Shown piece by piece: positions 25,783-35,567 of a stretch of 64,000 bases of DNA. Position numbers and translations under genes: made by a program. A model generated the notes under the pieces. It worked only from the letters and a program-made list of their open reading frames with translations. It did no database searches and had not been told where the DNA came from. Positions within the stretch are counted from its first letter, which is position 1; the number at the start of each line of letters is the position of its first letter. Location: contig NZ_JARGNB010000002.1 in NCBI RefSeq assembly GCF_030167915.1, forward strand, positions 124,001-188,000, given 5' to 3'. This DNA comes from Aquabacterium humicola. GTDB lineage: Bacteria; Pseudomonadota; Gammaproteobacteria; Burkholderiales; Burkholderiaceae_C.

Positions 25783-25871
25783 CGGCGGCGCGTGGTCGGC
25801 AGGCGGGAGGGGGCGAAGCGATGCAGGCTAGCGGCCACGCCGGGCCGCTTCAATTGTGGGAGGACCCGAGG

Positions 25872-25904
25872 GCGAACTTTTTTTCGTTGCAGCGCGAATC
25901 CATC
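25872..25904 (+). promoter_or_regulatory. Candidate ECF-type promoter before the DUF2892/sigma pair
   Basis: GCGAACTTTTTTT (25872-25884) and CGAATCCATC (25895-25904) lie 63-95 bases upstream of the first gene. GAACTT plus a T-run resembles the -35 GGAAC(T) class recognised by ECF sigma factors, and the second element falls at -10 distance. A seven-T run stands out in 70% GC DNA. This is pattern-based inference only. Confidence 0.4.
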
Positions 25905-25966
25905 CGCATCTTGCGCGCCTCTTGGGGGGCGAGGGTCGTCCTCGATCAACTTCGGAGAGTGAGAAC

Positions 25967-26164
25967 ATGCTGTACGTGAAGAATGTGCCGGGATGGGAAC
26001 GGGTGCTGCGCGTGGTGGGCGGCGGCTGCGGGGCGGTGGCGGCGCTGCTGCTGCTGCCGGCGCCGACGAGCTGGCTGGTCGCCGCGGGCGTCGGCGGCCT
26101 CGTCGTGTCGGGGCTGCTGGGCTGGTGCCCCGCCTGCGCGATGGTCGGCCGGAAGCTGAACTGA
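25967..26164 (+). CDS. Small two-helix membrane protein (DUF2892-like) with CxxC
   Basis: A 65-residue protein with two hydrophobic segments (about residues 13-31 and 36-53) typical of DUF2892/YgaP-type membrane domains. It opens MLYVKNVPGWERVLR and ends GWCPACAMVGRKLN, so a CxxC pair (C54, C57) lies just after the second helix. GGAGAG is 11 bases before the ATG. Its stop codon overlaps the start of the next gene (TGATG), so the two are translationally coupled. It might sense redox state or control the sigma factor; that is inference. Confidence 0.75.
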   Translation: MLYVKNVPGWERVLRVVGGGCGAVAALLLLPAPTSWLVAAGVGGLVVSGLLGWCPACAMVGRKLN

Positions 26165-26676
26165 TGTTCACCGGCGCCGAACCGGTGCTGGTCGCCGCGC
26201 ATGCCGGCGACGCCAACGCGCTGCAGCAGCTGCTGCGCATCGCGCGTCCGGACGTGCGCCGCTACGCGCAGCGCCACTGCCTGATCAGCGACGTCGACGA
26301 TGCGGTGCAGGAAGCGCTGTGGGTGCTGGCGCGGCGCGTGCACCAGCTGCGTGCGCTGGCGGCGTTCTCGGGCTGGCTGATCCGCATCGTGCAGCGCGAG
26401 TGCCGGCGCCTGGGCCGCGTCGCGCTGCGCTATGACCCCTACGACGAAGCGCAACTCGAACGCTGGCTCGCGGTGCGCACGACCGACCAGCTGCGCGTCG
26501 AGCTCGCGCAGGCGCTGCAGTCGCTGCCGGCGCACTACCGCGAGGTCATCCTGCTGCGCGATTTCGAGGAGCTGTCGATCGCCGAGCTCGCCGCGCGCCT
26601 GCAGCTGACGCCGGCGGCGGTGAAGAGCCGGCTGCACCGCGCGCGCGAGATGGCGCGCGAGTACCTTCTTGCCTAG
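26164..26676 (+). CDS. ECF-type RNA polymerase sigma factor
   Basis: A 170-residue sigma factor with region 2 (QQLLRIARPDVRRYAQRHC, DVDDAVQEALWVLARR) and region 4 (LAQALQSLPAHYREVILLRD, SIAELAARLQLTPAAVKSRL), separated by a short linker; regions 1 and 3 are absent, as in ECF factors. It begins ATG at 26164, overlapping the stop of the DUF2892-like gene. No conventional zinc-finger anti-sigma gene follows; instead the next gene converges and overlaps it by four bases. The membrane partner upstream is therefore the only candidate regulator in cis. Confidence 0.9.
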   Translation: MFTGAEPVLVAAHAGDANALQQLLRIARPDVRRYAQRHCLISDVDDAVQEALWVLARRVHQLRALAAFSGWLIRIVQRECRRLGRVALRYDPYDEAQLERWLAVRTTDQLRVELAQALQSLPAHYREVILLRDFEELSIAELAARLQLTPAAVKSRLHRAREMAREYLLA

Positions 26677-27443
26677 CGCGCCAGCGTCACGCCGCCGTCC
26701 ACCGTCAGCGTCGTGCCGACGACGTAGTCGCCGGCGCGCGAGGCGAGGTAGATCGCCGCGCCGGCCATGTCGTCGTCGACGCCGATGCGGCCGGACGGGA
26801 TGCGCTTGGCGACCGCATCGCCGTGGTCGCGCGCGTCCTTGTTCATGTCGGACGCGAAGGCGCCGGGCGCGATCGCGCTGACGACGATGTGGTCCTGCAC
26901 CAGGCGCAGCGCCATGCGCTTGGTCAGGTGGATCAGGCCGGCCTTGCTGGCGGCGTACGAGTAGGTCTCCATCGGGTTCACCGACAGCCCGTCGATCGAC
27001 GCGATGTTGATCACCTTGGCCGGCTGCGCTTCGGTCGCCCCCTTCTTCAGCGGCGCGTGCAGCGCCTGCGTCAGGAAGAACGGCGTCTTGACGTTGAGGT
27101 TCATCACCTTGTCCCAGCCGCTCTCGGGGAACTCGTCGAAGGCCGCGCCCCAGGCCGCGCCGGCGTTGTTGACGAGGATGTGCAGCGCAGGTTCGCGCGC
27201 CGTGATCTCGTCGACCAGCGCCTGCAGCCCGACGTGCGTCGAGATGTCGTGCGGCAGCGCGATGCAGGGGCCCAGCGACGACAGCTCGGCCGCCGCGGCG
27301 ACGCAGGCGTCGGCCTTGCGCGCGGTGATGTAGACGCGCGCGGCGCCGGCGCGCAGGAAGCCGGCGGCGATCATGCGGCCGATGCCGCGCGAGCCGCCGG
27401 TGACCAGCGCGACGCGGCCGGTGAGCGAGAAGAGGTCGGACAT
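26673..27443 (-). CDS. SDR-family oxidoreductase, RhlG-like
   Basis: A 256-residue short-chain reductase. It begins MSDLFSLTGRVALVTGGSRGIG, with the NADP-binding GGSRGIG, then NNAGAAWGAA, NIASIDG (Ser) and YSYAASKAG (Tyr and Lys). The sequence resembles RhlG, an NADPH-dependent beta-ketoacyl reductase described in Pseudomonas, in NNAG-WGA, GWDKVM and the IAPG/DGG regions. ATG at 27443 follows GGGAGA; an ATG 33 codons earlier adds a non-conserved tail. Its 3' end overlaps the sigma factor gene by four bases in convergent orientation. Substrate not known. Confidence 0.85.
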   Translation of the reverse strand: MSDLFSLTGRVALVTGGSRGIGRMIAAGFLRAGAARVYITARKADACVAAAAELSSLGPCIALPHDISTHVGLQALVDEITAREPALHILVNNAGAAWGAAFDEFPESGWDKVMNLNVKTPFFLTQALHAPLKKGATEAQPAKVINIASIDGLSVNPMETYSYAASKAGLIHLTKRMALRLVQDHIVVSAIAPGAFASDMNKDARDHGDAVAKRIPSGRIGVDDDMAGAAIYLASRAGDYVVGTTLTVDGGVTLAR

Positions 27444-27617
27444 GGAAGTCTCCCGAAGTGCAGCGAATCGATCGGTCGCGATCTTCACCGCGCCCACGCC
27501 GGCGGACAGTCGCCAAGGTGCCAGCGGTAGCGCGTGCGTCAATCATCTCGCTCGTGCAGGGTTGTTGCGACATCGCGTAGGCTCTCCGGGATTCCCACAG
27601 CACCCGAGGAGCGGCAC

Positions 27618-34706: not shown

Positions 34707-35567
34707 ATGCACAATGCCACGGTGCCGATTCTAGCCAGGGCCCTCGCAGCGCCGGCAGCCGCTGCGATGTTGGCCGGACTGACCTTGTTGCCCGCCGCCC
34801 GTGCCGACGAGCCGCCGAAGGCCGACAAGCCTGCCCGCGACGGCTGGGAAGGCGCCATCGGCCTCGTGCTGCGCCATGGCCCCACCTACGCCGGCGCGAC
34901 CGAGCACCGCAGCCGCGTCGTGCCGGGCCTGTTCCTGCGCTACGGCCGCTTCAGCGTCACGACGACCAGCGGCTTCGCGTCGCGTTCGTCGACCGACGAA
35001 TCGACCCGCGGCGGCCTGGCGGCCGAGCTGGTGCAGCGCGACGACTTTCGCGTCAGCTTGTCCTTCCGCTTCGCCGGCGGGCGCGATCCCGGCAGCGATG
35101 CCGCGCTGGCCGGCCTGGACAAGCGCCGCTCGACGCTGCGGGGCCGTCTGGGCGTCGCGCGCACCCTCGGTGGCGGCTGGCAGGTGCGCGCCGGCTGGAA
35201 CCCGGATCTGCTGAACCGCGACGGCGGCAGCTATGTCGATGCCGGCCTCGGTTACGGCTGGGCGCTGACGCCGACGGTGCGGGCGAACGCCAATGTCGGC
35301 GCGACCTGGGCCGACGCGCGCCACCTGCAGAGCTATTTCGGCATCACCGAGGCCGAGAGCCAGCGCTCCGGCCACCCGGTCTACCGCCCCGGCTCGGGGC
35401 TGCGCGACGTCGGCGCCAGCGTCGGCCTGCGCACCGATTTCGGCCCGCACTGGGTCGGCTTCACGAACCTCGGCGTCTCGCGCCTGATCGGCCCGGCCGC
35501 GGACAGCCCGCTGACCCGGCGCGCGGCGAACTGGAGCCTGGGCGCCGGCCTCGCCTGGCGCTTCTGA
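34707..35567 (+). CDS. MipA/OmpV-family outer membrane protein
   Basis: A 286-residue protein with a long signal peptide (MHNATVPILARALAAPAAAAMLAGL, cleaved near ARADEPP). The mature part has alternating beta-strands, the MipA/OmpV start (GAIGLVLRHGPTYAGATEHRS) and a final aromatic residue (AGLAWRF*) typical of outer membrane barrels. The family includes MltA-interacting scaffold proteins and receptor-like OmpV. Substrate or partner is unknown. It begins at 34707 with GGGGGGA upstream. It converges with the TetR gene (13-base gap). Confidence 0.82.
   Translation: MHNATVPILARALAAPAAAAMLAGLTLLPAARADEPPKADKPARDGWEGAIGLVLRHGPTYAGATEHRSRVVPGLFLRYGRFSVTTTSGFASRSSTDESTRGGLAAELVQRDDFRVSLSFRFAGGRDPGSDAALAGLDKRRSTLRGRLGVARTLGGGWQVRAGWNPDLLNRDGGSYVDAGLGYGWALTPTVRANANVGATWADARHLQSYFGITEAESQRSGHPVYRPGSGLRDVGASVGLRTDFGPHWVGFTNLGVSRLIGPAADSPLTRRAANWSLGAGLAWRF

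Follow-up and report, generated by a model that had tools for sequence, protein, structure and literature searches.

The subject of this work is a two-gene operon in a 64,000-nucleotide stretch of the genome of Aquabacterium humicola (contig NZ_JARGNB010000002.1, positions 124,001 to 188,000), referred to here as the window. The first gene encodes a 65-residue membrane protein with a CPxC motif, and the second encodes an extracytoplasmic function (ECF) sigma factor. We computed the genes, the conservation of the pair, the promoter motif, the conservation of cysteines and the nature of the putative targets. Our data indicate that conservation of the gene pair is far above chance and that the module is an ECF sigma factor with a membrane partner, a partner whose role admits several readings. 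The reading that we favor, tentatively and at a little short of an even chance, is a self-regulated unit for thiol or thiophilic-metal stress, with the CPxC protein exerting control over the sigma factor at the membrane.

A small membrane protein gene overlaps an ECF sigma factor gene

25954 to 25959, forward strand: probable ribosome binding site of the small gene, GGAGAG (from sequence)
25967 to 26164, forward strand: gene for the 65-residue two-helix membrane protein, YgaP-like_TM family (PF11127), CPxC subfamily with C54 and C57 (from Pfam, alignment and AlphaFold)
26126 to 26137, forward strand: codons of the CPAC motif (from sequence)
26164 to 26676, forward strand: gene for the ECF sigma factor, 170 residues, with invariant C39 and C80 (from Pfam, alignment and Foldseek)

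The small open reading frame (ORF) runs from an ATG at 25967 to a TGA ending at 26164 and encodes 65 residues. Its product matches YgaP-like_TM (PF11127) with 41.7 bits against a cut-off of 25.3. This is the sole Pfam match, and a rhodanese domain is not part of the protein. In the AlphaFold model, which has a mean predicted local distance difference test score (pLDDT) of 83.8, helices at residues 9-29 and 34-51 are followed by a short helix at 55-60 that begins at the CPAC motif, in agreement with the initial annotation of this DNA, which had described a two-helix protein with CPAC behind its second helix. The C-terminal end, WCPACAMVGRKLN, places cysteines 54 and 57 in a WCPAC ending, and the soluble part comprises approximately 8 residues ahead of helix 1 and approximately 14 past helix 2. 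The hairpin is bordered at each end by lysine and arginine residues; by the positive-inside rule, both ends are therefore predicted to be cytoplasmic. The sequence thus suggests an inner-membrane helical hairpin that would present both of its ends, together with CPxC, on the cytoplasmic face. A fold search with the model of the small protein gave no match at an E value of 0.001 or better.

The start codon of the sigma factor gene lies at 26164 and shares one base, the last of the small gene's stop codon, with that gene (TGATG), an overlap that had been noted before. The sigma factor is probably made via translational coupling to the small protein. It matches Sigma70_r2 (PF04542; 29.2 bits, cut-off 24), Sigma70_r4_2 (PF08281; 61.8 bits, cut-off 25.7) and TIGR02937 (68.3 bits), and region 3 (PF04539) remains under its cut-off at 11.7 bits (E 0.3). 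With region 2 and region 4 but without region 3, the protein is an ECF (group IV) sigma factor. The top Foldseek matches of its model are ECF sigma factors as well, at low TM-scores of approximately 0.33-0.43; the mean pLDDT of this model is 69, and the model is too weak in region 2 to give a distance between C39 and C80.

We asked whether either protein belongs to a known regulatory type. The next ORF downstream of the sigma factor gene (26673-27542) lies on the opposite strand, so the operon has no anti-sigma gene after the sigma factor. The small protein itself is not a zinc-finger anti-sigma (ZAS, HxxxCxxC) protein, as it matches PF11127 only in Pfam and contains zero histidines, which bears out the earlier statement that no zinc-finger anti-sigma gene is present. 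It gave no Pfam match to DUF1109 at E values up to 1 and has two long helices, not six. The sigma factor lacks the cysteine-rich C-terminal domain and CXC linker of CorE-like factors; its cysteines are residues 39 and 80 only, and the protein ends at residue 170.

The gene pair is conserved

Relatives of the sigma factor were collected from the species genome collection as 214 stretches, the best 80 of which were used for locus counts. The small gene is directly upstream of the sigma factor gene in 66 of these 80 loci; the pair finder required CxxC in the small protein, and its match at L067 was false, so that 66 rather than 67 are counted. The 14 loci without the pair are nine from Myxococcota (Corallococcus and a Myxococcaceae metagenome-assembled genome) together with L033, L055, L067, L071 and L081, the 80th locus, which is cut by a contig edge. 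No YgaP-like ORF without CxxC was present in the unfiltered ORF list of these 14 loci. The initial annotation had proposed a search of genomes for the same two genes, and the answer is that the pair is conserved across this collection and among closer relatives alike.

In related genomes, the small gene lies upstream of the sigma factor ortholog in seven of seven cases, with sigma factors 48-70% identical to that of the window; one of these genomes (G049) shares its contig coordinates with the genome of L011 (G119) and is probably identical to it, so that the seven may represent 6 independent cases. One ortholog (L091, genome G054) is split into two pieces and begins approximately 190 bases after the small gene. 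Profile searches of 100 related genomes found the sigma factor and the small protein in exactly the same 8, always adjacent (bit scores of at least 55 for the small protein, with the next at 39, and of at least 82 for the sigma factor, with the next at 50). One genome (G146) contains three small genes, each with a sigma factor ORF behind it, one of which ends early. Plasmid records gave no match to the small protein. Judged by sequence, the module thus appears to show the conserved gene pairing of anti-sigma factors. In the literature, we found no account of a DUF2892/YgaP protein paired with an ECF sigma factor, and the re-classification of ECF factors might list this neighborhood.

In Corallococcus, the same sigma factor (L042:3550-4062 and L035:3538-4050) is followed by a probable membrane protein of 171 residues, and no CPxC protein is encoded there. 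The 171-residue protein of L042, the one scanned, has no Pfam match.

Cysteines are conserved in both proteins

All 67 small proteins, collected with a finder that required CxxC, carry CPxC; 32 of them were aligned (the rows of L063 and L078 miss the first residue). For comparison, we read ordinary PF11127 proteins from 31 loci of the own genome and a phylum sample, 12 of them readable and most loci on the other strand unread. Eleven of these 12 have CPxY and a later cysteine, and one, from the own genome, has CPLE. The small protein departs from this ordinary tail in that it carries CPxC and the later cysteine is absent.

In the sigma factor, C39 and C80 are invariant in 40 of 40 aligned sequences (from a set of 81), whether or not the small gene is present, and both occur in 80 of the 81 sequences of the wider set. 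The exception is probably L053 with its stop: this sigma factor gene (L053:2965-3480) has one in-frame stop near its start and the small gene before it has no ATG, for which decay or a sequence error are possible. None of 22 distant ECF factors (L092-L113) has cysteine at both places, a weak control given that several rows are on the other strand or misaligned.

In two distant relatives, the DNA downstream of the sigma factor gene encodes another small protein of membrane type, which has a GCP[MI]CW motif (L090, 1998-2285, reverse strand, and L091:2256-2513). The CPxC motif is therefore not confined to the partner studied here.

A strict, predicted promoter motif precedes the operon

25878 to 25884, forward strand: T7 run in an A/T tract upstream of the -35 element, UP-element-like and not the promoter itself (from the count of A/T runs)
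25894 to 25901, forward strand: predicted -35 element GCGAATCC (from column counts over 65 operons)
25918 to 25925, forward strand: predicted -10 element CCTCTTGG (from column counts, with a 16-base spacer)

Upstream DNA of the operons yields the consensus GCGAA[TC]C[CG]-N16-CCTCTT[AG]G, which takes the form GCGAATCC-N16-CCTCTTGG in the window (25894-25925). The motif is found at 12 or more of 16 positions, with a spacer of 16, before 65 of 67 operons, those of L066 and L078 being the two below 12. Over the 65 operons, C2, G3 and A5 of the -35 element are present in all 65 and C7 in 64, and CCTCT of the -10 element is present in all 65. An A/T run of at least 5 lies upstream of the -35 element in 58 of 62 operons, against a mean of 32 and a maximum of 42 in 500 shuffles. 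The initial annotation had proposed a different promoter, GAACTT (25874-25879) with the run of seven T (25878-25884). When the 28 bases ahead of the conserved -35 element were compared over 65 operons, GAACTT was present only in that of the window, and we rejected this candidate as unconserved; the conserved promoter lies just downstream, and the T7 run is part of the A/T tract.

We next considered where the exact motif occurs in whole genomes, for which 16 and 35 of the 80 locus genomes plus 7 others were scanned (29 of the 80 were left out). The exact pattern occurs 62 times, spread over 39 of 58 genomes, and its reverse 4 times; by batch, these are 24 sites in 15 of 23 genomes against 1, and 38 sites in 24 of 35 genomes against 3. 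Of 81 distinct exact sites, 55 lie before an operon of the small gene and the sigma factor gene, 2 before a Corallococcus sigma factor, 19 before other genes and 5 are unassigned. The two Corallococcus sites (L035 and L044) are directly upstream of a sigma factor without the small gene, and seven others have close variants there. These data suggest that the sigma factor would transcribe its own operon from GCGAATCC-N16-CCTCTTGG.

Putative targets and operon companions share a thiol and metal theme

The 19 exact sites before other genes precede cysteine-rich exported peptides (9), SoxA/TsdA-type cytochromes c (6), SelL-related AhpC-like proteins (2), a thioredoxin (1) and an AhpD-family protein (1); at least one relative per type was scanned and the remainder assigned by eye. 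The cysteine-rich peptides, with KCAPKCxxK-like repeats (MKTSLKLASLAALTAATLALPAAAQ...KCAPKCGAKCAPK), follow the motif in L060, L065, L078, L079, L080, L083, L138, L152 and L172. One such peptide (L140:1062-1337) was tested and has no Pfam or NCBIfam match, and in the case scanned a DUF6969 gene adjoins the peptide gene. The peptide is possibly metal-binding or modified.

In some relatives, further genes stand behind the sigma factor gene. TusA is encoded there in L058 (by Pfam), with similar genes in L048 and L070. Thioredoxin is encoded in L068, with a similar gene in L076, and in some operons the thioredoxin that comes next is membrane-anchored. L060 has a gene for a GDCCVxC protein, with a similar one in L054, and L082 has a gene for NrtS. 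DUF2282 (bufferin-type) genes occupy this place in L064, L067 and L071; in L071, the gene after them encodes a BufB maturase that scores above the NCBIfam cut-off. A Crp/FNR-type regulator follows in L031 by Pfam, and similar genes are found in other Duganella and Massilia loci. The theme common to targets and companions is thiols, sulfur and thiophilic metals.

The Crp/FNR-type regulator has a cysteine-containing N-terminus, and in Duganella, Massilia and relatives its first ATG lies 29-48 bases after the sigma factor gene on the same strand (L012, L016, L026, L029, L031, L032, L038, L041, L045, L046 and L052).

The own genome contains two exact sites, with 0 in the reversed control. The second of these (C5:6571) has neither an A/T tract nor a convincing gene. 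With up to 1 mismatch, there are 8 sites against 0 in the control. The four DUF2282 genes of the own genome were considered as targets and rejected, since no motif occurs in the approximately 1.5 kb seen on each side; the best score nearby, 12 of 16, is not located before a DUF2282 gene. At one of these places (L205, contig C1 of genome G000 near 34898), the DUF2282 gene is followed by a DUF692-like ORF, and an ORF on the opposite strand resembles another ECF sigma factor by eye.

An inverted repeat follows the -10 element

25930 to 25944, forward strand: inverted repeat CGAGG-GTCGT-CCTCG, predicted to fold into a hairpin at the transcript's 5' end or close to it (from stem counts and paired changes)

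A perfect stem of at least 4 lies just past the -10 element in 62 of 65 operons, against a mean of 12.6 and a maximum of 22 in 300 shuffles. The arms come in 17 different pairs; many are GAGG/CCTC in longer or shorter form, and others, for example GGGAA/TTCCC, GAGAG/CTCTC and AGAGTA/TACTCT, are distinct. With the register held constant, all four core pairs are kept in 46 of 65 operons, against at most 6 when one arm is slid by 1-3 bases. Changes on both sides occur at all four core pairs, and more than 2 sequences show them in only two pairs (7 and 5). A similar repeat stands at the same place before 7 of the 9 genes for cysteine-rich peptides. Of the 10 remaining target sites, a SelL site carries a stem of 4 bases at this place and the AhpD site a 5-base repeat at a different offset, so that the contrast between target types is a tendency, not a rule. 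Hairpins that stabilize a transcript at its 5' end are known. The repeat would perhaps form such a hairpin at the 5' end of this transcript, and as an alternative it may be the binding site of a regulator.

Possible roles of the small protein

Self-regulation, strict pairing and cysteines on both partners come together in this module. They fit the hypothesis that the small protein acts in the membrane as a switch responsive to thiols or metal and keeps the sigma factor in check. The sigma factor would transcribe its own operon, from which the small CPxC protein would be made first and the sigma factor second. While its thiols are reduced or free of metal, the small protein would keep the sigma factor at the membrane in an inactive state. 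Release would follow once CPxC, and possibly C39/C80 of the sigma factor as well, is oxidized or binds a thiophilic metal such as copper. The sigma factor would then raise its own operon plus, where present, genes for thiol and metal defense. Within this scheme, transcription by the sigma factor, the physical interaction, the direction of control, the topology and the signal are what we infer. A stronger form of the hypothesis seems unlikely to us, namely that the hairpin of 65 residues with its CPxC is a redox anti-sigma factor of the membrane reduced to a minimum and the founder of a new family, that direct thiol exchange with C39/C80 both tethers and releases the sigma factor, and that the CPxC form of the YgaP fold evolved for this purpose.

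Several observations weigh against control of the sigma factor by the small protein. The small protein is almost without a soluble part. The sigma factor is kept without the small gene in 13 of 79 loci (the 9 Myxococcota and 4 others), and since C39 and C80 are kept in such sigma factors, these cysteines are independent of the partner. A profile of the small protein found no match in the 14 genomes of the pairless loci, a heuristic search with no positive control whose empty answer proves little. The pair is patchy, being carried by 2 of 21 genomes of the own genus. The promoter drifts as well, given that of the seven related genomes that carry the pair, six are without the exact motif: five of these six operons match at 12-13 of 16 positions, and L090 has no site at 12 or more. 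Lastly, the own genome offers no further convincing target; with up to 2 mismatches, it has 80 sites against 57 in the control and these are therefore not interpretable. The operon's promoter is the sole convincing site there, and the small protein could therefore be the output of the system. The initial annotation had envisaged a membrane redox or stress sensor acting as an anti-sigma factor or partner. Of this proposal, the coupling of the two genes stands and a thiol or redox theme is supported (by CPxC, C39/C80 and the predicted regulon elsewhere), while the anti-sigma role is called into question by how little soluble part is available for binding a sigma factor and by the loci in which the sigma factor stands alone.

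We consider another explanation nearly as good as control at the membrane and regard it as plausible, though short of probable. The small protein might be the effector and main target, with the sigma factor sensing through C39/C80 (by a disulfide or metal in region 2) and activating its own operon. What the operon delivers in the own genome would then be the small protein, whose task would be to deal with thiols, persulfide or metal at the membrane. The invariance of C39/C80 in 40 of 40 sequences, with or without the small gene, agrees with a sigma factor that senses by itself, and in its model, helices 41-59 and 62-88 would form an antiparallel hairpin that may bring residue 39 near residue 80 (block pLDDT approximately 49-63). 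Besides the operon being the only convincing promoter site in the own genome, L067 and L071 have DUF2282 genes after the sigma factor gene in place of the small gene before it, as if a likely target replaced it, and the inverted repeat is common to the operons of the small protein and 7 of 9 genes for cysteine-rich peptides. Yet a pure effector should sometimes occur without the sigma factor or under separate copies of the promoter, and no strong match in the 100 genomes did so; where one genome has extra copies of the small gene, they again precede a sigma factor ORF. A sigma factor that senses and activates itself without a brake would also be unusual.

The small protein could also reset the sigma factor or its target proteins through thiol exchange at CPxC, serving as a thiol reductant or a carrier of sulfur in the membrane, which would amount to positive feedback or a reset and not to a tether. 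We find this quite improbable. Thioredoxin-type active sites have CPxC at the start of a helix, and CPxC of the small protein may be likened to them; in some operons, the gene that comes next encodes TusA or a membrane-anchored thioredoxin. To our knowledge, the two-helix YgaP-like domain alone has no redox activity. YgaP is a membrane sulfurtransferase (PMC4730233), but a rhodanese domain is lacking in the small protein. A chance or purely positional linkage with no functional relation is by far the least credible explanation: small genes are easily carried with a neighbor and the patchiness of the pair fits block transfer, but the pair is kept down to 48-57% identity of the sigma factor and its two members are identically present or absent among the 100 genomes.

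If the small protein controls the sigma factor, as in the reading that we favor, the module would show how little is needed to tie transcription to the thiol or metal state of the membrane, and it would provide a function for one branch of PF11127, a very common and mostly unassigned fold. Should it be an output instead, the strictness of the promoter still allows the regulon to be read from sequence in several genomes. Through this promoter, cysteine-rich peptides, thioredoxin and cytochrome c are linked to one sigma factor, as are TusA and bufferin-type genes through their place in the operon.

Comparison with known systems

CnrY of Cupriavidus metallidurans is a very small, single-pass membrane anti-sigma factor with a cytosolic stretch that binds its sigma factor. 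CnrH is among the weaker Foldseek matches of the sigma factor model (E 0.02), and CnrY is likened to the small protein by description. The gig cluster of the same species is of bufferin type. Its copper- and gold-induced genes gigPABT lie beside an ECF sigma factor and a predicted membrane anti-sigma factor, RpoQ-RsqA (PMC10304878). By that description only, the module resembles RpoQ-RsqA in that relatives of the window sigma factor carry DUF2282 genes downstream (L064, L067 and L071), and it differs in that the four DUF2282 genes of the window genome are without the promoter in the stretches seen.

The same Pfam domain, PF11127, is found in YgaP of Escherichia coli, whose transmembrane domain has two helices, is dimeric and occurs with a cytosolic domain (PMC4730233). 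The small protein, in contrast, lacks a rhodanese domain, has CPxC where most members read have CPxY...C, and is coupled to a sigma factor. Likened at the level of DUF2892 only, the gene Dsui_0042 of Azospira suillum is among the most abundant transcripts and is approximately tenfold up under sulfide-oxidizing conditions (PMC5358917). In CorE-type sigma factors (ECF238, former ECF44), activity is set by cysteines in the sigma factor itself (PMC8999054), whereas the window sigma factor lacks an extension and its sole two cysteines lie in region 2.

The best precedent for a membrane switch that restrains a sigma factor is EcfF-OsrA of Bradyrhizobium japonicum. OsrA is an anti-sigma factor that spans the membrane with six helices, has two conserved cysteines and controls the self-regulated EcfF (PMC3420878). 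OsrA has six helices and its gene follows that of the sigma factor, whereas the protein studied here is a two-helix protein of 65 residues from another family whose gene comes before the sigma factor gene. The likeness of our module to this system (ECF16, OsrA/NrsF, DUF1109) would lie in a self-regulated operon, a membrane protein with two cysteines and targets related to oxidative damage (PMC3420878).
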